From a virus: DNA of 64,000 nt. Under the pieces are notes generated by a model. It had not been told where the DNA came from. It did not search any database and saw only the letters and a program-made list of their open reading frames with translations. This document shows, one piece after another, positions 29,465 through 61,139 of the stretch (the first letter of the stretch is position 1; the number at the start of each line of letters is the position of its first letter). The stretch is from the IMG/VR virus record IMGVR_UViG_3300047546_001496, positions 31,379 to 95,378 of that record. One strand, 5' to 3'. A program made the position numbers and the translations under genes.

Positions 29465-29513
29465 AAACCGCACGTCCCGCCCGATTTGTCCGATTTGTTA
29501 AGAACCTCCCGAT

Positions 29514-29542
29514 TTGATTTTTGTATTTTTTTATGATAAGAT
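29514..29542 (+). promoter_or_regulatory. Early promoter, leaderless start
   Basis: TTGATT, 17 bases, TAAGAT, then six bases to the ATG at 29549. Confidence 0.75.
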
Positions 29543-29548
29543 TATTTT

Positions 29549-29686
29549 ATGAGAAAGAAAACTGCTGAGGAATTAAGGCGCTTAATGGAATTGCGCCGAT
29601 CTAATGCTGCTCAACCATTAAGGAACAAAAAAAATTATTCCCGAAAGATTAAGCACAAAAAATTTGACATCTCTGAAAATAAATGA
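29549..29686 (+). CDS. 45-residue basic micro-protein
   Basis: The product (MRKKTAEELRRLMELRRSN...) is rich in Arg and Lys and could bind nucleic acid. The promoter -10 lies exactly six bases before the ATG, a strong sign that this short gene is real and leaderless. It runs into the next promoter. Confidence 0.65.
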   Translation: MRKKTAEELRRLMELRRSNAAQPLRNKKNYSRKIKHKKFDISENK

Positions 29687-29692
29687 TAAAAT
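29664..29692 (+). promoter_or_regulatory. Early promoter
   Basis: TTGACA, 17 bases, TAAAAT, close to consensus, upstream of the GP88-family gene. Confidence 0.8.
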
Positions 29693-29714
29693 AAAAGAAA
29701 AGAAAGGACCCATA

Positions 29715-30428
29715 ATGCTAAAACGCTCTATGGATAGGAAGGTGACTAATGCAGTCTCAAAAAATGGAAAGACCCCAACAATTGCCAACACTTTTGGATT
29801 ACCTGCTGGTAAAGATTTCTCGTGCCCTGGTGCCACCCCAACTTGTACAACTATTTGTTATGCAGGAAAACTCGAAAAAGTCTATAAAGGAGTAAAGGCA
29901 GTATTACTCCATAACTGGGAATTACTTAAAGACGCTAATCAAGAAACGATGATTAGTTTATTGTCTGACATGATTGCAGACTTTAGAAAAGATTGTGAAA
30001 AGAAAAATGCACCCTTACTATTTCGTATTCACTGGGATGGGGATTTCTTCTCTGATACCTATACCAATGCATGGAAAATAGTAATTCTAAATAATCCTGA
30101 CATTAAGTTTTGGGTTTATACTCGTGTACCTAGTGCAGCGACAATTCTTAATAAGATAGATAATCTATCTCTCTATTTCTCTACTGATAAAGATAACACC
30201 GAAAACGCTAAAAGTGTAAATGCGCTAGGTGTACGCCTTGCATACCTTGCAGATACTTTCGCAATAGGTCAAGCAGACTTAAAGGCTATGATTGGTAAGG
30301 TAGGCGCAAAGTGTCCTGAGAATAAAAAGGCTATTCCCTTAATTGACAAAGACGGCTCTGCCTGTGTAAAATGTAGTCTATGCGTAGATAATAAGGCAGA
30401 CATAGTATTTAGCGCAAAGAAAAGGTAG
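29715..30428 (+). CDS. GP88-family protein
   Basis: The 237-residue protein matches the actinophage gene product 88 family. Landmarks are TFGLPAGKDFSCPGATPTC, TTICYAGKLEKVY, LFRIHWDGDFFSDTY and FWVYTRVPSA, with a late CVKCSLC zinc site. Many conserved Cys suggest metal binding; the family function is not established to my knowledge. The start at ATG 29715 follows AGAAAGGACC. The frame upstream of it holds the promoter. Confidence 0.8.
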   Translation: MLKRSMDRKVTNAVSKNGKTPTIANTFGLPAGKDFSCPGATPTCTTICYAGKLEKVYKGVKAVLLHNWELLKDANQETMISLLSDMIADFRKDCEKKNAPLLFRIHWDGDFFSDTYTNAWKIVILNNPDIKFWVYTRVPSAATILNKIDNLSLYFSTDKDNTENAKSVNALGVRLAYLADTFAIGQADLKAMIGKVGAKCPENKKAIPLIDKDGSACVKCSLCVDNKADIVFSAKKR

Positions 30429-30431
30429 GCT

Positions 30432-30506
30432 ATGAGATCTGAGTATTGGATAATAATAGGGTTATTACTATTTACCCTCTCAATGTGGGGGAGTAATGGG
30501 CTATAA
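30432..30506 (+). CDS. 24-residue membrane micro-protein
   Basis: The frame (MRSEYWIIIGLLLFTLSMWG) is a single membrane helix, starting four bases after the GP88 stop. It is short and has no clear ribosome-binding site, so it may be chance. Confidence 0.35.
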   Translation: MRSEYWIIIGLLLFTLSMWGSNGL

Positions 30507-30537
30507 ATCTCAAAATGTGAGATTTTTAGATTTGGAC

Positions 30538-30566
30538 TTGACAACCAATAAAATAAATGTCATAAT
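30538..30566 (+). promoter_or_regulatory. Early promoter
   Basis: TTGACA, 17 bases, CATAAT, upstream of the 30604 gene. Confidence 0.75.
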
Positions 30567-30603
30567 AAATACAAGAAATACCAACCTAACGAAAGGAAAC
30601 AAA

Positions 30604-30771
30604 ATGGCAGTAAATACCGCAACATACAAGGTAGGCGACCTCTACACCTCACAGAAATCAAAGGTTACAGGCACTATCACAGAAATCAAGCCAAACAAAG
30701 ACGGAAACTCCGTTCGTGTCAAACTTGATGTAAATGGCTCACCTCGCTGGACAACTTGGACAGCGAAGTAA
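30604..30771 (+). CDS. Small KOW/SH3-like protein (paralogue of 31399-31566)
   Basis: The 55-residue product has YKVGDLYTSQKSKVTGTITEI, matching YQIGDLFTTSKTGITGRIEKF of the equal-length gene at 31399. The pattern suits a small barrel. CGAAAGGAAA precedes the ATG. Both copies are followed by the pseudoknot element. Confidence 0.7.
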   Translation: MAVNTATYKVGDLYTSQKSKVTGTITEIKPNKDGNSVRVKLDVNGSPRWTTWTAK

Positions 30772-30788
30772 TTTAGCAAACGCTAACC

Positions 30789-30818
30789 TGTCCTGAGCAT
30801 GACAAGGCTAAACTGCTC
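30789..30818 (+). ncRNA. 3'-end pseudoknot element, copy A
   Basis: Stem 1 is TGTC/GACA with loop CTGAGCAT; GAGCA in the loop can pair with TGCTC at 30814-30818, after TAAAC. It lies 17 bases after a stop codon and ends just before the next -35. Confidence 0.7.
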
Positions 30819-30820
30819 AC

Positions 30821-30849
30821 TTGATTTTTAGCACTAAAAATGCTAAACT
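30821..30849 (+). promoter_or_regulatory. Early promoter
   Basis: TTGATT, 17 bases, TAAACT. It starts two bases after pseudoknot copy A. Confidence 0.75.
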
Positions 30850-30886
30850 ATAAATAACCCAAAAACCCAAACGAAAGGATAAACAA

Positions 30887-31309
30887 ATGGCTAGAAATGG
30901 CAAAGCGATAAATGTAAAAATCGCTACAACTAAAGTAGTCAAGGCACTAGAAAGTGCGTTGGCTAAGTTAGATAAAGACTTCGCTTCACAAGAGGCGAAC
31001 GAGGCAAAGCACGACAAAGCAGTAAAGGCATGGAATAAAGAGGTTGCCAAACTTGCTATGGGTGCTATCAACAAGGCAGAGGATTTATCTGCTCATACAA
31101 GATACAATGGCGAAATCCAAGTATCTTTCTCACTACCTAAAGGTTCTATTGAAATCCCTGCTGAACCTAAGAAAGACTACAACTCTATCCATGAGTGGCA
31201 GTATCGTGAGCAAAAAGAGGAAATTGAGAACGCAATTCGTATTCTCAAGATGACAGATGAGGAAGTAGTTTCTACTTCTACTTACAACGCTATCGCAAGA
31301 TACTTGTAA
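30887..31309 (+). CDS. Hypothetical early coiled-coil protein
   Basis: The 140-residue protein has a basic helical N-terminal half (LESALAKLDKDFASQEAN) and a charged C-terminal helix (EWQYREQKEEIENAIRIL). No domain is recognised. CGAAAGGATAA lies before the ATG. A hairpin near 31318-31346 overlaps the next promoter. Confidence 0.7.
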   Translation: MARNGKAINVKIATTKVVKALESALAKLDKDFASQEANEAKHDKAVKAWNKEVAKLAMGAINKAEDLSAHTRYNGEIQVSFSLPKGSIEIPAEPKKDYNSIHEWQYREQKEEIENAIRILKMTDEEVVSTSTYNAIARYL

Positions 31310-31331
31310 TTAGATAGGCAGGGGAGGGTAT

Positions 31332-31360
31332 TTGACTTCCCTGCCAAAATCTAGTAAAAT
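31332..31360 (+). promoter_or_regulatory. Early promoter
   Basis: TTGACT, 17 bases, TAAAAT. The -35 lies inside the loop of a hairpin formed by GGCAGGG and CCCTGCC. Confidence 0.75.
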
Positions 31361-31398
31361 AATAATAAGACCCAATAAACAGAAAGGCAAGAAAAAAA

Positions 31399-31566
31399 AT
31401 GACATTAGGCGGATACACTTACCAAATCGGTGATTTATTCACAACAAGCAAAACAGGAATTACAGGTCGTATTGAGAAGTTCGTTCCAATGCGTCACAAT
31501 GTAACAAAGGTAATGCTTCGCTTGGCAAATAATCAAACTCGATTTGCTATGGTAAAGACATACTAA
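31399..31566 (+). CDS. Small KOW/SH3-like protein (paralogue of 30604-30771)
   Basis: The 55-residue product (YTYQIGDLFTTSKTGITGR) has the same length and pattern as the earlier copy and keeps its arrangement: promoter, gene, pseudoknot. AGAAAGGCAAG precedes the ATG. Confidence 0.7.
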   Translation: MTLGGYTYQIGDLFTTSKTGITGRIEKFVPMRHNVTKVMLRLANNQTRFAMVKTY

Positions 31567-31635
31567 GTTTCTTTCCTGATAAGCCCCGCTAAAAAATGAA
31601 GTGGCGAAAGTCCTTGCGGGTATTCCTGGAAAGAT

Positions 31636-31662
31636 CATCCTGAGCATGATGTAAAACTGCTC
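31636..31662 (+). ncRNA. 3'-end pseudoknot element, copy B
   Basis: Stem 1 is CATC/GATG with loop CTGAGCAT; GAGCA can pair with TGCTC (31658-31662) after AAAAC. It lies 69 bases after the stop of the 31399 gene. Confidence 0.7.
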
Positions 31663-31687
31663 CACCTCCAAAAACCCCACGTGGGCC

Positions 31688-31703
31688 TGTGATCTTTATC
31701 ACA
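31688..31703. promoter_or_regulatory. CRP/GlxR-like palindrome
   Basis: TGTGATCTTTATCACA, followed at once by CGACACGCC (31705-31713), upstream of the promoter at 31734. Confidence 0.6.
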
Positions 31704-31733
31704 CCGACACGCCATAAATTTTTAAGACTGGAC

Positions 31734-31762
31734 TTGTATTTTCCCCTATTTTTTGCTAGACT
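31734..31762 (+). promoter_or_regulatory. Early promoter
   Basis: TTGTAT, 17 bases, TAGACT, for the two-gene operon 31792-32506. Confidence 0.65.
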
Positions 31763-31791
31763 TGTTACAAGACCCAAAGAAAGGAAACAAA

Positions 31792-32067
31792 ATGATAGCG
31801 ACAATGCTAGGACTACAAAATGCAACACAGGAAGCGGTTCATGACCCAATTATAATGAACATGGCTTCTGCTATTTATCATCACAAAGACGAAATGTCAT
31901 CAGAGGAATTTGCTAGGGCTTTATTTGAATACTCTGCTGCTCTTTCATCTATGACAACAACTCTCGTGACCCATGTATTATTGACACAAGAACAATTAGA
32001 TGTTATGCTAGATACTATTAGAGAATTTGATGAACTAGGAAAGGACATCTCAAATGGAAACGAATAA
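31792..32067 (+). CDS. Hypothetical early protein
   Basis: From ATG 31792 (after GAAAGGAAA) the product is 91 residues, largely helical (EEFARALFEYSAALSSMTTT). Its 3' end overlaps the next gene by 14 bases. Confidence 0.65.
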   Translation: MIATMLGLQNATQEAVHDPIIMNMASAIYHHKDEMSSEEFARALFEYSAALSSMTTTLVTHVLLTQEQLDVMLDTIREFDELGKDISNGNE

Positions 32068-32506
32068 TGAAACCGTGGCTCCAGTCCACTACAACCCAAA
32101 TCAATTGGTAACCTATAAAGTTATTGATTTAGATGCAACGGACCAAACCGTACAGTACCCAACTATCAAAGTTGTAGACCTTGAATGGGAACTTGAACAG
32201 GGCCGTCGTAAGTCGAAGAGGCTGAATGAATACGTAGAAAAAGTTGGCCATGTAGAAAATAGACTGGCTGATTATTTAGAAATGGACGCAGAAGACATTG
32301 TCTCTGAACTATGCAATATTTTTGGATTCAATCCAACCAAGGAAATTGAATTTGAAGCAACCGCAACAATTACTGGAAGGGTTAGTGTTCCACTAGCGGA
32401 CCTATCAACATTTGACATTGAAGATATCGATTTGACTGTTTATGCAGATTCGCATTCACATGATGTTGATGTTGATGTAGAAGTTGACAACATCTCAATG
32501 CTATAA
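32054..32506 (+). CDS. Hypothetical acidic early protein
   Basis: The 150-residue protein has a central helical segment and a strongly acidic beta C-terminus (DSHSHDVDVDVEVD). It overlaps the upstream gene and is followed by a GC-rich hairpin. No function is recognised. Confidence 0.65.
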   Translation: METNNETVAPVHYNPNQLVTYKVIDLDATDQTVQYPTIKVVDLEWELEQGRRKSKRLNEYVEKVGHVENRLADYLEMDAEDIVSELCNIFGFNPTKEIEFEATATITGRVSVPLADLSTFDIEDIDLTVYADSHSHDVDVDVEVDNISML

Positions 32507-32510
32507 AAAT

Positions 32511-32537
32511 TTGCGGGGTTCATGAAAGGCCCCGCAA
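32511..32537 (+). terminator. GC-rich hairpin terminator candidate
   Basis: TTGCGGGG (32511-32518) pairs with CCCCGCAA (32530-32537), four bases after the stop codon. No long T-run follows. Confidence 0.5.
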
Positions 32538-32583
32538 TGTATGCAGCATCCCTCTTTCATCCTTTCTTTCAGGGATCTGCAAG

Positions 32584-32612
32584 GGACCTGAGCATGTCCA
32601 TGTAAACTGCTC
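32584..32612 (+). ncRNA. 3'-end pseudoknot element, copy C
   Basis: Stem 1 is GGAC/GTCC with loop CTGAGCAT; GAGCA can pair with TGCTC (32608-32612) after TAAAC. It lies 77 bases after the stop of the 32054 gene. Confidence 0.7.
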
Positions 32613-32695
32613 CCTCCAAAAATCCACGTCCCGCAAAGGGATTTTGTCAAGTTTACGGACAGTCTGGACAATTCGGACATTTTGCTTAACAGGAT

Positions 32696-32724
32696 TTGCT
32701 TTTGTCGCTGGGTTGTGCTAAGAT
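32696..32724 (+). promoter_or_regulatory. Early promoter
   Basis: TTGCTT, 17 bases, TAAGAT, for the DUF932 gene. Confidence 0.7.
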
Positions 32725-32755
32725 AGATTCTAAATGACCACAGAAAGGAAAAAAA

Positions 32756-33775
32756 ATGGCTCATGAATTAGAAACACAAAATGGTGTTGCTTCTTTTGCT
32801 TCTTTCAGAGAACCTGCTTGGCATGGCTTAGGCACAGTTTTCACAGAAGAAAAAAATACTAGCGAAATGCTAGTTGCTGCTAATCTAAATAATTGGAATG
32901 TTAGATTGGCTGATGTTGAAATTCCAAATACACTTACCTCAGACAAAAATTACTTTTTTGTAGTAAGAGATAATCCTACCGATAAATCACAAACAGATGT
33001 TCTTGGTGTTGTCGGTGAGCGTTATCATGTTTTACAGAATGAAGATTTATTCTCATTCGGTGATACTCTCCTAGATGGTGGTGGTCGTTGGGAAACTGCT
33101 GGCTCTATTCGTGGAGGTCGTGTTGTATTCGGCTCTCTTGCTCTTGAGCGTGAAACAGTATTAGACCCTAATGGTGTTGCGGATAAGGTAAAGACTTATC
33201 TTCTTATCAATACATCTCACGATGGTTCTATTGCTATTCAAGCATCTATCACGCCCGTTCGTGTTGTATGCGCTAACACTCTAAACCTTGCTCTTGGTGG
33301 CGTAGGTCGTAAGAAAAAAGGCGTAAAGCAATCTTTCAAGATTCGCCACACACAAACCGCTAATGGTAAAGTCCAAATTGCTCGTGAGGCTCTTGGTCTT
33401 GCTAATGCTTACATGGACGAATTCGATAAAATGGCTCATGCTATGATTCAACACGAAATCACAGCACAGCAATTTAACGATATTGTTCTTGCTGCTTATC
33501 CAAAGCCTGAAAGCGATAAGAAAATCGCACTCACCAAATGGACAAATAAAGTTGATACTATCAACGATATTTACACAGGTGAATTTAATGGCATGATTGC
33601 TGGTTCTGCTTGGGGTGCGTTCAATGCGCTAACCGAAAGATTAGATTGGCATCGTTCTGCTCGTGGTGGAAATAATGAGGCAATGCTTGCTGCTGCTTCT
33701 GGTTTTGACGCTACAATTACAGCAGAAAAAAATCGTTTGCTAAAAGTTGTAAAAGATGTTTTAGCAATAGCGTAA
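32756..33775 (+). CDS. DUF932 family protein
   Basis: The 339-residue protein is a full-length DUF932 (phage/plasmid-like) protein: REPAWHGLGTVF at the N-terminus, VVGERYHVLQNEDLFSF, and TPVRVVCANTLNLAL are family landmarks. The family is common on phages and plasmids; its biochemical role is unknown. AGAAAGGAAA precedes the ATG. A pseudoknot element follows 11 bases after the stop. Confidence 0.9.
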   Translation: MAHELETQNGVASFASFREPAWHGLGTVFTEEKNTSEMLVAANLNNWNVRLADVEIPNTLTSDKNYFFVVRDNPTDKSQTDVLGVVGERYHVLQNEDLFSFGDTLLDGGGRWETAGSIRGGRVVFGSLALERETVLDPNGVADKVKTYLLINTSHDGSIAIQASITPVRVVCANTLNLALGGVGRKKKGVKQSFKIRHTQTANGKVQIAREALGLANAYMDEFDKMAHAMIQHEITAQQFNDIVLAAYPKPESDKKIALTKWTNKVDTINDIYTGEFNGMIAGSAWGAFNALTERLDWHRSARGGNNEAMLAAASGFDATITAEKNRLLKVVKDVLAIA

Positions 33776-33786
33776 ATAAATTCGCA

Positions 33787-33813
33787 ACTCCTGAGCACGA
33801 GTATAAACTGCTC
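33787..33813 (+). ncRNA. 3'-end pseudoknot element, copy D
   Basis: Stem 1 is ACTC/GAGT with loop CTGAGCAC; GAGCA can pair with TGCTC (33809-33813) after TAAAC. A run of eight T follows, so this copy could also end transcription. Confidence 0.7.
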
Positions 33814-33919
33814 AAATTTTTTTTGCAATCGCTGATCTAAAATAAAAAATTGCAAAAAACCCCACGTGAATTCGGACATTTCGGACATAACATTTTTAGA
33901 AAATTTAATTACGAAGCGC

Positions 33920-33948
33920 TTGCTTTTTTCCCTGAATTTTGGTATGAT
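33920..33948 (+). promoter_or_regulatory. Early promoter, leaderless start
   Basis: TTGCTT, 17 bases, TATGAT, then six bases to the ATG at 33955. Confidence 0.75.
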
Positions 33949-33954
33949 TAATTC

Positions 33955-34110
33955 ATGACTCAAACCTACAAACCTTACACCGTAAACGAACTCGTTATGG
34001 CTTTATGGGAAGATAACATGTCCCATTTTGAATTTATGGAATCCATGAATGGCGGGGACTGTGATTGTGCCCTGCATACTACTATGAATACTATCTATCC
34101 TTACTTATGA
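33955..34110 (+). CDS. 51-residue micro-protein
   Basis: The product (MTQTYKPYTVNELVMALWED...) has a CDC pair near the end. The -10 six bases upstream supports the start. It ends in an ATGA overlap with the next gene. Confidence 0.65.
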   Translation: MTQTYKPYTVNELVMALWEDNMSHFEFMESMNGGDCDCALHTTMNTIYPYL

Positions 34111-34232
34111 CAGACATCGTACTTTCATGGTCTGATTTAGCAGATCTAACACATGAGACTCAGGTAGAATTATTTAATTTCTGTACCTGCGAAGACCCTG
34201 ATTATGATAAGCCATATTCTGACTGCCCTTGA
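34107..34232 (+). CDS. 41-residue acidic CxC micro-protein
   Basis: The product (MTDIVLSWSDLADLTHET...) has FCTCEDPD and a final Cys. It is coupled to the previous gene (ATGA). Its end overlaps the -35 of the next promoter. Confidence 0.6.
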   Translation: MTDIVLSWSDLADLTHETQVELFNFCTCEDPDYDKPYSDCP

Positions 34233-34257
34233 CATTCCCCTGCATTTTTGCTAAAAT
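34229..34257 (+). promoter_or_regulatory. Early promoter
   Basis: TTGACA, 17 bases, TAAAAT, close to consensus. Confidence 0.8.
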
Positions 34258-34287
34258 ATAATTACGACCTAACAGAAAGGACCCATA

Positions 34288-34974
34288 ATGCCAAATTGGT
34301 GTTATAACTATCTATCCATAGAGGGTAGTGCAAAAGATATCTCCACTATCAAGGCTCAACTCAATACTCCATTTGAGGTAATGCATGACAACTGGAATTC
34401 TGAAACAAGACAAATGGAAAAGAAAATGTATAAATACTCTAAACCAGTATTTGCATTCTGGAACATTGTCAAACCCACAAACCTAAAAGCCTATAATGGT
34501 CCACAACCTGAAACAGATTTATCTAAAGGTGTTACTTTTGAATCAGACCATTGGTATGACTGGAATGTTCGCAATTGGGGAACTAAGTGGGATGTTGCTG
34601 TATCTGATGAAGAGAAGTATTCTGAGACTGAGTTGACTGATGAGGGTAAGAAGTTTCTTTCCTATCGTTTCAACACTGCTTGGTCCCCTCCTACTGAGGC
34701 AATAACAAAACTATCTGAACAATATCCTGATTTAGTTATTACTCTATCCTTTGAGGAAGAGACTGGTTGGGGTGGAGAGATAGTTTTTGAAAATGGCGAG
34801 GGTGCAGAAACAGAATCCTATGGCTGGAAGTGTAAAGAGTGCGACCATACAGAGGAAGAAACACCATTTTGTGAAGATTGTGACTTTGACACTTGCCCAA
34901 GTTGTGGATATAATGAAGCAGATGAGGCATGCGAACAACACAGAGAGGGACATAATGCACACTTATTTGCTTGA
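34288..34974 (+). CDS. DUF1281/YubB-like protein with zinc-ribbon tail
   Basis: The 228-residue protein begins MPNWCYNYLSIEG, the hallmark of the YubB/DUF1281 ferredoxin-like family, and continues with FAFWNIVKP, WYDWNVRNWGTKWD and FNTAWSPPTEAI. The last 50 residues add CKECDH, CEDCDFD and CPSCGY, a zinc-ribbon extension that I do not expect in the basic family. The family is found on plasmids and phages; its role is unknown. AGAAAGGACC precedes the ATG. Confidence 0.85.
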   Translation: MPNWCYNYLSIEGSAKDISTIKAQLNTPFEVMHDNWNSETRQMEKKMYKYSKPVFAFWNIVKPTNLKAYNGPQPETDLSKGVTFESDHWYDWNVRNWGTKWDVAVSDEEKYSETELTDEGKKFLSYRFNTAWSPPTEAITKLSEQYPDLVITLSFEEETGWGGEIVFENGEGAETESYGWKCKECDHTEEETPFCEDCDFDTCPSCGYNEADEACEQHREGHNAHLFA

Positions 34975-35164
34975 ATATATGAAGGCACATCTAATTAGTT
35001 TAGAACAAGACCAAGAAGAGATAGAAAAACAAATGGAAAATTTAGATATGAATTCTAAAGAGTTCCTAGAGTTAGATTTTGAATTTAACTGGTTGGGTGG
35101 GCAGGCTATTGCTACCCGCCACTTTATAAAAATAGCAGAGGAGTATAATGGAACTGCAGCCTAG
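34955..35164 (+). CDS. Hypothetical coiled-coil protein
   Basis: The product is 69 residues from ATG 34955 (MHTYLLEYMKAHLISLEQDQ...), a charged helix pair. AGAGAGGGA lies upstream, and the start overlaps the previous gene by 20 bases. Confidence 0.6.
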   Translation: MHTYLLEYMKAHLISLEQDQEEIEKQMENLDMNSKEFLELDFEFNWLGGQAIATRHFIKIAEEYNGTAA

Positions 35165-35417
35165 TCTACAGAGACAGGTGGACCATGGTTCATCTGGTCT
35201 TGATATATTACATGGTGCCCTTAAAGTTCTCATGGTGGACGCAGAAGATGAACTACGTATGGCCCAAGAGACCGAAGAGGCCAATGACTATGACGACGCT
35301 ATGGAATCTATGGAGCGTAAATACTGGGAGGGACAGGTAGACGCTCTTGCACATTTATATGAACTCACATATGCATTATCATTCGCTATAGCAGAAAGGG
35401 AAAGCAGCAATGCCTAA
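35148..35417 (+). CDS. Hypothetical helical protein
   Basis: The 89-residue product (ALKVLMVDAEDELRMAQETE) is mainly helical and acidic. GAGGAG-type purines precede the ATG, and both ends overlap neighbours. No domain is known. Confidence 0.6.
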   Translation: MELQPSLQRQVDHGSSGLDILHGALKVLMVDAEDELRMAQETEEANDYDDAMESMERKYWEGQVDALAHLYELTYALSFAIAERESSNA

Positions 35418-35553
35418 TTACAGCATAGAGGTTATTCATGAGCCTACGGGTACATTTATGAACTTTACTGTCGATTCAGATCTAGAAGAGGACCAGGTTT
35501 GGAACGAGGTTTTGTCCGATTTGTCCGTAGTTGCTTTTTCAAAGGATAACTGA
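35410..35553 (+). CDS. 47-residue micro-protein
   Basis: The product (MPNYSIEVIHEPTGTFMNF...) is a small acidic alpha/beta protein. It starts within the previous gene after AAAGGGAAAG and contains the -35 of the next promoter in its end. Confidence 0.55.
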   Translation: MPNYSIEVIHEPTGTFMNFTVDSDLEEDQVWNEVLSDLSVVAFSKDN

Positions 35554-35559
35554 TACAAT
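35531..35559 (+). promoter_or_regulatory. Early promoter
   Basis: TTGCTT, 17 bases, TACAAT. Confidence 0.7.
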
Positions 35560-35589
35560 GGCAATAAACCCTACAGAAAGGAAATAATA

Positions 35590-35682
35590 ATGGCTATGGA
35601 ATACATTGACGGAGAACTAGTGTTCTTTGAGGATGAAGAAATAGATTTAATTGATGAAGAGCAAGATGAGGACGAGGAGTAA
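35590..35682 (+). CDS. 30-residue highly acidic micro-protein
   Basis: About half of the residues are Asp or Glu (EDEEIDLIDEEQDEDEE). AGAAAGGAAA precedes the ATG. Strongly acidic phage mini-proteins can mimic DNA, but nothing more specific can be said. Confidence 0.55.
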   Translation: MAMEYIDGELVFFEDEEIDLIDEEQDEDEE

Positions 35683-35684
35683 TC

Positions 35685-36047
35685 GTGGGAGATAGAATCG
35701 TCTACACAATCAAACAAGATAATAATTTATCAGTTAACCTGTACAGCCACTGGGGTGGCAGCGATAGGTTTGAGTCCCTGGCGAATGCATTACATGCAGC
35801 AATGCCAAGGTGGAATGACACATCCTATGCAACACGCATTATCGTATCTCAGTTGATTGGCAACCAATGGGATGAGGAGACAGGCTTTGGTCTATGGGCC
35901 AGCAATAGTGACGGGGCATATGGAGGAGACCATCCAGATATCACTATTGATTTAATTAATAAGACTGTAGAAGATGAGACTGGCATTCATGACTTTGAAA
36001 GTTTTATTACTTATCATAAAGGCTTTGTGACGACGGTCACATCATAA
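35685..36047 (+). CDS. Hypothetical early protein
   Basis: The 120-residue protein starts with GTG two bases after the acidic micro-gene. NLYSHWGGSDRFESLANAL and TIDLINKTVEDE suggest a compact alpha/beta domain. A CRP-like palindrome (36026-36041) lies inside its 3' end. Confidence 0.65.
   Translation: MGDRIVYTIKQDNNLSVNLYSHWGGSDRFESLANALHAAMPRWNDTSYATRIIVSQLIGNQWDEETGFGLWASNSDGAYGGDHPDITIDLINKTVEDETGIHDFESFITYHKGFVTTVTS
36026..36041. promoter_or_regulatory. CRP/GlxR-like palindrome
   Basis: TGTGACGACGGTCACA is a perfect TGTGA-N6-TCACA operator, within the end of a coding region and about 55 bases upstream of the next -35. Confidence 0.5.
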
Positions 36048-36070
36048 AGAGGGTTGGGTCCCCTCTATAC

Positions 36071-36105
36071 GGGGGCGTGGGTTATCTTGCCAACTTGCGC
36101 CCCCT
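36071..36105 (+). other. GC-rich hairpin overlapping a promoter
   Basis: GGGGGCG (36071-36077) pairs with CGCCCCC (36098-36104) around a 20-base loop, just after a smaller AGAGGG/CCCTCT hairpin near 36048-36066. The -35 of the next promoter is in its 3' arm. Confidence 0.5.
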
Positions 36106-36123
36106 TCTAATTTTTGGTACAAT
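36095..36123 (+). promoter_or_regulatory. Early promoter
   Basis: TTGCGC, 17 bases, TACAAT. Confidence 0.6.
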
Positions 36124-36140
36124 CTATAGGAAGGAGCATA

Positions 36141-36395
36141 ATGTCTAGATATAGTGTTAGAAGGCCTACACATAATAAAGAATCAAGGGCAGCCGAGCAG
36201 ATTGCTAAGTTGCTTACACAAGACATGGCTCTTGACTTAGAGCGTGTTGGATATTATTTAGTCAGAAATCTTCCTAGAATTGTTTATCATCGCCTTGAAG
36301 TCATGGCCTTGTCAGCACAGGAAGAATCTGCTATACTTATGGGTGAGTATGAAAAGGATAGAGGCAGGGGAATAAGTTATGGACTTCGCAGATAA
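36141..36395 (+). CDS. Hypothetical helical protein
   Basis: From ATG 36141 (after GGAAGGAG) the product is 84 residues, basic at the N-terminus (MSRYSVRRPTHNKESRAAE) with a helical core. It overlaps the next gene by 17 bases. Confidence 0.6.
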   Translation: MSRYSVRRPTHNKESRAAEQIAKLLTQDMALDLERVGYYLVRNLPRIVYHRLEVMALSAQEESAILMGEYEKDRGRGISYGLRR

Positions 36396-48221: not shown

Positions 48222-48244
48222 ATTGTAATTATAGCATGTAAAAT

Positions 48245-48271
48245 GAGCAGTTTATCCACATGCTCAGGTGG
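48245..48271 (-). ncRNA. 3'-end pseudoknot element, copy E
   Basis: On the minus strand, stem 1 is CCAC/GTGG with loop CTGAGCAT; GAGCA can pair with TGCTC after TAAAC. It begins eight bases after the Hsp20 stop and ends before the leaderless promoter of the next gene. Confidence 0.72.
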
Positions 48272-48279
48272 TATTTTAT

Positions 48280-48699
48280 TTACTTGATTTTGATAGTTTT
48301 TGGTTTCTTTTCTTCGGGGATGTTTCTTTCCACAAAGACGCTAAGAATACCGTCTGCCATTTCAGCACGATCTACCTCCATATACTCTCCAAGAGCAAAG
48401 GTGCGTGTGAATTTGCGAGTTGCGATACCCTTATGGAGTACATTCTCTGTACCCTCTTCGGTTTTCTCACCCTTGACGATTAGACTTCCATTATCCACAG
48501 AAACCTCGACTTCGTCCTTGCTGAAACCAGCAATGGCCAAAGACAACTTGTAAGTGTCCTCATCGATCTTTACCACATCATATGGTGGGTAGGATTGACG
48601 AGTTGCCTCACGATGGATGTTATAGAAGCGGTCCAACTCTCTGTTGAAACCAATAAAAAAAGGATCCTTAAAAAGATCCAATGACCATGTACTTACCAT
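48280..48699 (-). CDS. Small heat shock protein Hsp20
   Basis: The 139-residue protein has the alpha-crystallin domain: YKLSLAIAGFSKDEVEVSVD, SLIVKGEKTE, and ADGILSVFVERNIPEE with the late LSVxVP-like motif. An IxI-type end (TIKIK) suits oligomer assembly. It should hold unfolded proteins during infection. AAGGAGGAA precedes the ATG. The leader has a hairpin (GTACCTGCCC/GGGGGGTAC), and a pseudoknot follows the stop. Confidence 0.93.
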   Translation of the reverse strand: MVSTWSLDLFKDPFFIGFNRELDRFYNIHREATRQSYPPYDVVKIDEDTYKLSLAIAGFSKDEVEVSVDNGSLIVKGEKTEEGTENVLHKGIATRKFTRTFALGEYMEVDRAEMADGILSVFVERNIPEEKKPKTIKIK

Positions 48700-60244: not shown

Positions 60245-60274
60245 AGTTCCTCCTATGTATATTATATCATTATT

Positions 60275-60301
60275 GGGCAGTTTTTAATCATGCCCAGGAT
60301 T
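60275..60301 (-). ncRNA. 3'-end pseudoknot element, copy F (compensated)
   Basis: On the minus strand stem 1 is AATC/GATT with loop CTGGGCAT; here GGGCA pairs with TGCCC. Both sides of the pseudoknot helix have changed together, compared with GAGCA/TGCTC elsewhere. It starts six bases after the protease stop. Confidence 0.75.
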
Positions 60302-60308
60302 TTTATAA

Positions 60309-61139
60309 TTACTTAATGAATGGATATGTTAGAAACTTAGTAAGCCCAGAAATAAACTGAGCAAACAAACTTGTTTGTCCAACATATGTTGTTGCTGCTA
60401 CAGAAGTTGCAACCGATGTTCCAGAAATATCATATGTATTATTAAGTGCTTTTCTAATATCTCCAACTGCAACAACATCAAGGCCTGGACCTGAATTTGT
60501 AACTGCCTGCAGCATACTTCCATCAAGTGTCATAGCGCCTACACCAACTGCACCTTGAACACATGCTGGAAAACCAACTTTATCTTTAAGGCTATCGTTA
60601 CCTGTAGCAATAAATGTTGGCACATTTTGGCTTTCTAAAGATTTAATTGAATTAGATATAATCAAATCTGTAGGACATGTTGTCCAATTAACTCTTGACT
60701 GACTTACGGAAACAGCATCAATACTATATTTAGATGCATTTTTAGATACCCAATCCATAGCATTAGAAAGACTTGCTCCAGAATTTAAAGTTCCACCTGT
60801 CGAAGTTACATTGGCAATTCTAACAAAAACAATCTTAATATTTGAATTAGTTTTTATTGATGCCGTAACCATTTTTAGTCCGTGATATATTGGATGAGAA
60901 AAGTTTGTAGATGTTGCCCATACGGGAGAGTTGGCAGATCCTTTACCCTCCATAAAATTAGTTTTATTTAGACATGACTTATTGTCTGTAAAGCATGCCT
61001 CATAAATAATTGAAGGAAATTGATTTGAGTCAATGGCTGTATCAATAATTGCCACAACTCTTTCATCTGCTGCCTTTGCAATTTGCATAGGTGCAAAAAT
61101 AGTTAGTGCTGTTAGTATTGTTATTAGTATTTTTTTCAT
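60309..61139 (-). CDS. Secreted subtilisin-like serine protease
   Basis: The 276-residue protein has a signal peptide (residues 1-23, ending IAKAADE). VVAIIDTAID has the catalytic Asp, HPIYHGLKMV the His, FIATGNDS the oxyanion Asn, and ISGTSVATSVAA the Ser. It lacks the usual Pro after GTSxA, so activity is likely but not certain. It is shorter than most S8 proteases and has no pro-domain. GAAAGG precedes the ATG. Confidence 0.8.
   Translation of the reverse strand: MKKILITILTALTIFAPMQIAKAADERVVAIIDTAIDSNQFPSIIYEACFTDNKSCLNKTNFMEGKGSANSPVWATSTNFSHPIYHGLKMVTASIKTNSNIKIVFVRIANVTSTGGTLNSGASLSNAMDWVSKNASKYSIDAVSVSQSRVNWTTCPTDLIISNSIKSLESQNVPTFIATGNDSLKDKVGFPACVQGAVGVGAMTLDGSMLQAVTNSGPGLDVVAVGDIRKALNNTYDISGTSVATSVAATTYVGQTSLFAQFISGLTKFLTYPFIK

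Follow-up and report, generated by a model that had tools for sequence, protein, structure and literature searches.

Six copies of one element in a viral genome

The stretch analysed here, referred to as the window, is a 64,000-nt part (positions 31,379 to 95,378) of the 95,378-base virus record IMGVR_UViG_3300047546_001496. It carries six copies, A–F, of a compact RNA element, each lying behind the stop codon of a gene. Scanning the window with the pattern CTGAGCAY-N{6-9}-AAACTGCTC gave four matches on the plus strand (30793–30818, 31640–31662, 32588–32612 and 33791–33813) and one on the minus strand (48245–48267), against none in 100 dinucleotide shuffles of the window. A covariance model built on the first helix (P1) only found exactly six copies, scoring 28.8–44.6 bits, with the next best site at 10 bits. 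The copies and the genes before them are as follows, with helices P1 and P2 and loops L1 and L3 given where they were assigned.

30604–30771, plus strand: gene before A, 55 aa, weak DUF7258 match, paralogous to the gene before B
30789–30818, plus strand: copy A (pattern and model, 31.0 bits; model span 30789–30821); P1 30789–30792/30801–30804, TGTC/GACA; L1 30793–30794, CT; P2 30795–30799/30814–30818, GAGCA/TGCTC; L3 30805–30813, AGGCTAAAC
31399–31566, plus strand: gene before B, 55 aa
31636–31662, plus strand: copy B (pattern and model, 44.3 bits; model span 31636–31665); P1 31636–31639/31648–31651, CATC/GATG; P2 31642–31646/31658–31662, GAGCA/TGCTC; L3 TAAAAC
32054–32506, plus strand: gene before C, 150 aa, no family match
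32584–32612, plus strand: copy C (pattern and model, 28.8 bits; model span 32584–32615); P1 32584–32587/32596–32599, GGAC/GTCC; P2 32590–32594/32608–32612, GAGCA/TGCTC; L3 ATGTAAAC
32756–33775, plus strand: gene before D, DUF932 (E 1.2e-49)
33787–33813, plus strand: copy D (pattern and model, 40.5 bits; model span 33787–33816); P1 33787–33790/33799–33802, ACTC/GAGT; P2 33793–33797/33809–33813, GAGCA/TGCTC; L3 ATAAAC; followed by AAATTTTTTTT
48245–48271, minus strand: copy E (pattern and model, 44.6 bits; model span 48242–48271); P1 CCAC/GTGG; P2 GAGCA/TGCTC
48280–48699, minus strand: gene before E, Hsp20 family (E 5.1e-20)
60275–60301, minus strand: copy F (model, 40.5 bits; model span 60272–60301); P1 AATC/GATT; compensated P2 GGGCA/TGCCC
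60309–61139, minus strand: gene before F, 276 aa, no family match

The initial annotation had described A–D as four copies of one plan with differing, perfectly paired 4-bp P1 stems, lying 11–77 bases past a stop codon and ahead of the next promoter. All four were recovered with those stems, two more were found on the minus strand, and the distances from stop codon to element measure 17, 69, 77, 11, 8 and 7 nt for A–F. The promoter claim stands in part: by eye, sigma70-like boxes with 17-nt spacers lie beyond all six copies, with TATAAT within ~10 nt of E and F, but a consensus scan of the region was not significant overall (25 found versus 18.5 ± 5.1 expected). In the early-type region (29500–36200), individual sigma70-like promoters, each with an extended −10 box (TGnTAnnAT) and a spacer of 17 nt, seem to stand before many of the small genes. 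Another motif recurs here as well: CAAAAAyCCCACGTG, or a sequence close to it, lies 3′ of B, C and D at ~31670, ~32618 (CAAAAATCCACGT, after C) and ~33854.

Both helices covary independently

The element spans ~30 nt and follows a single plan: P1, L1 (CU), P2, a single-base L2 (U, C or A), the P1′ strand, a linker of 2 nt (0–9), AAAC and the P2′ strand. P1 is 4 bp long (range 3–7) with C–G as its innermost pair, and P2 is RRRYA/URYYY, most commonly GAGCA/UGCUC. The third loop, originally noted as A-rich, recurs as NN-AAAC, and in 74% of copies P2′ is followed by an A, which may pair with the U of L1 to give a sixth P2 pair. P1 has a median stacking energy of about −6 kcal/mol and is not G+C-optimised, whereas the loop bases, and P2 at most of its positions, hardly vary between phages of many phyla.

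Several observations bear on the fold. First, compensatory changes occur in 7 of the 9 pairs, with a covariation score of 0.594 versus 0.173 for shuffled sequences. Second, a search that did not demand P1 pairing gave 165 sites whose middle is 6 bases long, 162 of which form at least three of the four P1 pairs. Third, in a 2 × 2 test of P2 across 2.9 million contigs, GAGCA with TGCTC and GGACA with TGTCC each occurred in at least 120 IMG/VR stretches, while the crossed, non-pairing combinations of the same arms gave no match at all. Fourth, the GGACA set served as an independent replicate, and all 96 of its sites had two or three of the three testable P1 pairs. An H-type pseudoknot with independently covarying helices is thus supported by comparative evidence, as the initial annotation had proposed; it had named a lack of further homologues with conserved pairing as one point on which its reading could fail, and many such homologues were found. 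Groove triplexes, a common feature of pseudoknots of this kind, are probably formed by L1 (CU) and L3 (NNAAAC). Variants with a 6-bp P2, GAGCCA/TGGCTC and GGGCCA/TGGCCT (in the region of L004:11791, and in L176 near a homologue of the 150-aa gene), indicate that P2 length can change with compensation.

Known elements share parts of this architecture. The frameshift element of beet western yellows virus, a luteovirus-type mini-pseudoknot, has a short P1, a 2-nt L1, a 1-nt L2 and an A-rich L3; its geometry is very similar, whereas the phage element has no slippery site or frameshift context and lies behind stop codons, outside reading frames. The T4 gene 32 operator, an H-type pseudoknot in a phage mRNA 5′ leader that is bound by gp32, shares with it the fold class and the setting in phage mRNA but no sequence, and T4 has no copy of the element. 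The rrn boxA begins with UGCUC, like the commonest P2′ strand; identity with boxA was ruled out by the compensated variation of P2, whose other 3′ arms are UGUCC, UGCCC and UGUUC.

Fold class and size also recall the H-type pseudoknots of type III toxin–antitoxin systems, which measure ~35 nt for the ToxN type and ~30–36 nt, with groove triplexes, for ToxI and antiQ (PMC5086642); a phage 'pseudo-ToxI' is known, and the element might be a related antitoxin or a decoy for ToxN-type RNases. Its copies, which differ in sequence from those antitoxins, are dispersed and single rather than in tandem repeats, occupy a fixed place behind stop codons and have no adjacent toxN (a ToxN search of 25 carriers gave no match, nor did the control genomes, so that it lacked a positive control). 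We find this reading barely credible.

The element follows stop codons and precedes tRNA genes

The element begins 4–9 nt after the stop of an open reading frame on its own strand in 81 of 215 phage copies, compared with 5 of 215 on the opposite strand; in the replicate GGACA set, the counts are 41/96 sense and 3/96 antisense. A spacing of 5–6 nt is commonest and one below 4 nt almost never occurs. tRNA genes show the same one-sidedness: in 19 cases one begins 3–14 nt after the element, and in the same sets none ends within 15 nt before it. Where RNase P cuts at such a tRNA, the element has no place left but at the 3′ end of the upstream mRNA. In Arthrobacter phage Molivia, for example, 6 nt separate the upstream SSB gene from the element, and tRNA-Gly follows 2 nt further on. 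Roseophage SIO1 and Lentibacter phage ICBM1 have the element within an operon, behind the gene for ribonucleotide reductase (RNR). An element acting at the level of DNA was ruled out by the strict sense orientation and the one-sided association with stops and tRNAs. Programmed recoding by stop-codon readthrough or frameshifting was ruled out as well, since no frames continue and only 1 of 236 copies lies inside an open reading frame of at least 100 aa.

Intergenic, pre-tRNA placement resembles that of the phage hepatitis delta virus-like theta ribozymes, at least as these are outlined in PMC10879173, and a small self-cleaving or processing element separating cistrons would fit such positions. 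Against it stand the presence of only ~7 conserved unpaired bases, the lack of any Rfam ribozyme match and the fact that RNase P already cuts at the tRNA; we regard self-cleavage as very improbable.

The element is linked to the upstream gene

The genes before the element are diverse, including Hsp20 (15), DUF932 (9), RNR, SSB/gp2.5, major head protein and polymerases. Among Hsp20 homologues of the gene before E, 21 of 22 have the element behind them, and 23 DUF932 homologues of the gene before D in the fetched set have it past their stop, the gene that comes next being of at least 12 different kinds. Among pairs of copies with homologous upstream genes, the downstream genes are homologous too in 30%; among pairs with homologous downstream genes, the figure for the upstream genes is 61%. 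The upstream neighbour is kept while downstream neighbours change, which identifies a 3′-UTR (untranslated region) element of the upstream gene, an assignment on which strand, stop spacing and gene association agree and which the initial annotation had already made. A riboswitch akin to the preQ1-I pseudoknot was rejected, as there is no Rfam match and the downstream genes are mutually unrelated; for ligand sensing, one of three roles floated earlier, we found no positive evidence.

Homologues that do not carry the element show what can stand in its place. In phages related to that of the window, orthologous genes end either in the pseudoknot or in a strong hairpin without a U-tract, and the window itself has such a hairpin between copies A and B:

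31318–31345, plus strand: stable hairpin without U-tract after the 140-aa gene (30887–31309), sequence ggcaggggaggg...cttccctgcc; minimum free energy −23.1, z −6.6

Eleven of 20 homologues of this 140-aa gene have the pseudoknot in their 3′UTR. With all families pooled, a strong hairpin (z < −3) stands behind 20 of 68 homologues that lack the element and 9 of 125 that have it (p 8e-5), the count for unrelated open reading frame ends being 28 of 250. At several loci (window 31318–31360 and the orthologous places in L011, L017, L047, L099 and L113), a strong hairpin behind the stop overlaps the −35 region of the next promoter-like sequence.

Most copies lack a U-tract

The tail following the element is poor in G at +2 to +9 (3–9% versus 21%) and enriched in U. 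T runs are mostly no longer than 3, and ~79% of copies have no run of four U in +1 to +14; copy D, with T8 directly after it, is an exception. Intrinsic terminators are not enriched downstream of phage copies (3/210 versus 6/400 in controls). Many copies are internal to operons, with the next start codon ~20–30 nt or a tRNA 3–8 nt further on, which leaves no room for a promoter. The element was accordingly not assigned to the intrinsic terminators, which combine a G+C-rich stem with a U-tract at the end of a transcription unit, and the termination role floated earlier is disfavoured. A factor-independent terminator or strong pause site, in which the pseudoknot would form behind RNA polymerase over a weak, G-poor RNA–DNA hybrid of 9 nt, would account for the tail composition, the T8 after D and the position of the window copies ahead of the next promoter. 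It sits poorly with the operon-internal copies and with the majority devoid of a U run, and we judge it improbable.

A family spread across phages of many phyla

The canonical pattern is present in at least 120 IMG/VR stretches. One single P1/linker version occurs in 42 contigs, compared with 4 among the first 120 loci, which by extrapolation suggests that contigs with the canonical P2, other P2 variants not counted, number around a thousand in order of magnitude. A short-query BLAST search, in which E-values were weak, gave ~100 isolated-phage records with the element, and the hosts of these phages belong to many phyla. Of ten records that were fetched, nine showed it under a fixed-length pattern, the exception being Molivia, whose longer middle falls outside that pattern. 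Carriers include Roseobacter phage SIO1, Lentibacter, Celeribacter and Paracoccus phages, E. coli phiEcoM-GJ1 and its relatives, and Aeromonas, Vibrio, Nostoc, Synechococcus, Lactobacillus and Streptococcus phages, together with Arthrobacter Molivia, Mycobacterium Labelle, the deep-sea thermophilic phage D6E and crAss-like cr7_1, thus spanning Proteobacteria, Actinobacteria, Firmicutes, Cyanobacteria and Bacteroidetes.

A covariance model search found no convincing copy in T4, T7, SPO1, S-PM2, P-SSM2, Syn9 or crAss001; the five best of the weak hits in T4, T7, SPO1, cyanophages and crAss001 (up to 18.6 bits) were inspected, lacked the conserved plan and were taken as chance. Plasmids have almost none (7 weak matches), and the canonical element is rare in bacterial genomes (7/247 and 5/247 genomes in two phyla). 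Whole phage elements lie in spacers of apparent CRISPR (clustered regularly interspaced short palindromic repeats) arrays of Oscillatoriaceae, Poribacteria and Melioribacter (L149, L178 and L132); by our own estimate, three spacers are about what uniform sampling would give, and we claim no enrichment.

No Rfam 15 family matches any window copy, at the gathering threshold or at E ≤ 10, in keeping with the initial annotation, which did not recognise the family. Literature searches on the motif, phage and pseudoknot found no description of the element, and searches for CUGAGCAU and similar strings matched only unrelated papers. By the Rfam test this is a new RNA family, of the kind of 3′-UTR elements that set mRNA fate, and there is a considerable chance that it works by a new mechanism. 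Neither Rfam nor any of the model phages examined contains it, which may be why it escaped notice.

A chromosomal relative follows a 20-aa peptide gene

In Deltaproteobacteria, Actinomycetes, Aminicenantes and KSB1 metagenome-assembled genomes, the element is found behind a free-standing gene that encodes a conserved 20-aa peptide (for example, MKRFTMPRTAHCSEGCKLKS) with the pattern M[KR]RF..PR.AHC..GC...S*. The UGA stop of these genes mostly lies inside the pseudoknot, and a terminator often stands behind it. Codon third positions vary, so conservation indicates that the peptide is real; no NCBIfam family matches it. The genome contig loci are:

L131, L134, L140, L142, L146, L148, L152, L153, L156, L158, L163, L169, L170, L174 and L180: peptide gene, UGA inside the pseudoknot
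L139 and L160: related peptide gene, earlier stop

In this chromosomal setting, the fold may have been put to a separate use. The terminators that often stand directly behind the chromosomal copies speak against put-like antitermination, in which the nascent element would bind RNA polymerase at the point where translation ends and Rho might load. All hosts have a conserved polymerase, and copies within operons and before untranslated tRNA genes would suit such a role, but the next genes in the window apparently have promoters of their own and the element is unlike known put or boxA, its boxA-like UGCUC strand covarying with the rest of P2. We hold antitermination to be quite improbable.

A possible 3′-end barrier for phage mRNAs

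Fold, place, upstream-gene link and a partial exchange with hairpins were computed here, and from them we infer an exonuclease block that stabilises mRNA: the element would be a compact, portable 3′-end barrier behind the stops of selected phage genes, a proposal to which we give an even chance. We favour it because the element belongs to the upstream gene, has no U-tract, borders on RNase P sites, gives way to a stable hairpin in some orthologues and stands clear of the terminating ribosome. As expected of 3′-protective RNAs, it is a structured RNA on the sense strand between a stop and the next gene and, copy D excepted, has no U-tract or terminator. Intercistronic structures without a U-tract resist 3′–5′ exonucleases and stabilise the upstream gene, as for malE in E. 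coli (PMC5927463). The REP-type elements of malE–malF likewise lie behind the upstream stop, are linked to the upstream gene and have the same proposed exonuclease block; they are hairpins without one conserved sequence, whereas here a single conserved pseudoknot family spans phages of many phyla.

In the proposed mechanism, a polycistronic or run-on transcript would be cut downstream of the element, by RNase P where a tRNA lies 3–8 nt on and by RNase E/Y or Rho elsewhere, the G-poor, U-rich tail of ~9 nt being a plausible entry or cut site. Exonucleases would then trim back in the 3′-to-5′ direction and stall at the pseudoknot, and the upstream message (SSB, Hsp20, RNR, DUF932 or capsid-region genes) would outlast its neighbours. 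Spacing from the stop would let the terminating ribosome finish without melting the knot. Of the three roles floated in the initial annotation, mRNA 3′-end protection thus appears to fit position, upstream link and hairpin swap best.

Several points weigh against a barrier. No transcript end is recorded at or near the element, and a literature search found no work on carrier-phage transcriptomes. Linkage to the upstream gene is dominated by one family, DUF932. Over the whole set, 3′UTR folding medians with and without the element do not differ and the hairpin-swap signal is partial, so that a hairpin often takes the element's place, though not as a general rule. The chromosomal version, with its stop inside the knot and often a terminator behind, is unexplained by the barrier model. 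Finally, a short, AU-containing P1 combined with near-invariant loops and P2 shows more sequence conservation than a mechanical block would obviously need and hints at a specific partner.

Such a partner could be a factor conserved among hosts (an RNA chaperone, a ribosomal protein or a regulator of ribonucleases) whose binding would protect or regulate the mRNA upstream, with CU, RRRYA/URYYY and AAAC as recognition bases. The near-invariance of the unpaired bases across phages of many phyla, a P1 that needs only to pair and the existence of a rare chromosomal relative are all in line with this, but no single candidate is common to all hosts, the search for co-occurring genes having covered ToxN only; we rate it as unlikely. 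More broadly, and tentatively, at less than an even chance, we propose an undescribed RNA family that would occur in thousands of phages infecting nearly every bacterial group. Its near-invariant 30-nt pseudoknot would act on some universally conserved machinery of the host (exonuclease, ribosome or RNA polymerase) and so decide what becomes of each phage mRNA. Its action at the 3′ end would depend on its sequence, unlike that of a generic hairpin, and some bacteria would have taken it into a gene for a conserved 20-aa peptide.

What results is a compact, strongly covarying RNA family, found over phages of many phyla and missing from Rfam. If the element binds a host factor, it would point to an unknown conserved host–phage RNA interaction. 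If it is a 3′-end barrier, it would be a portable 30-nt tag that raises the expression of single genes within operons, and would answer how co-transcribed phage genes attain unequal mRNA levels without terminators.

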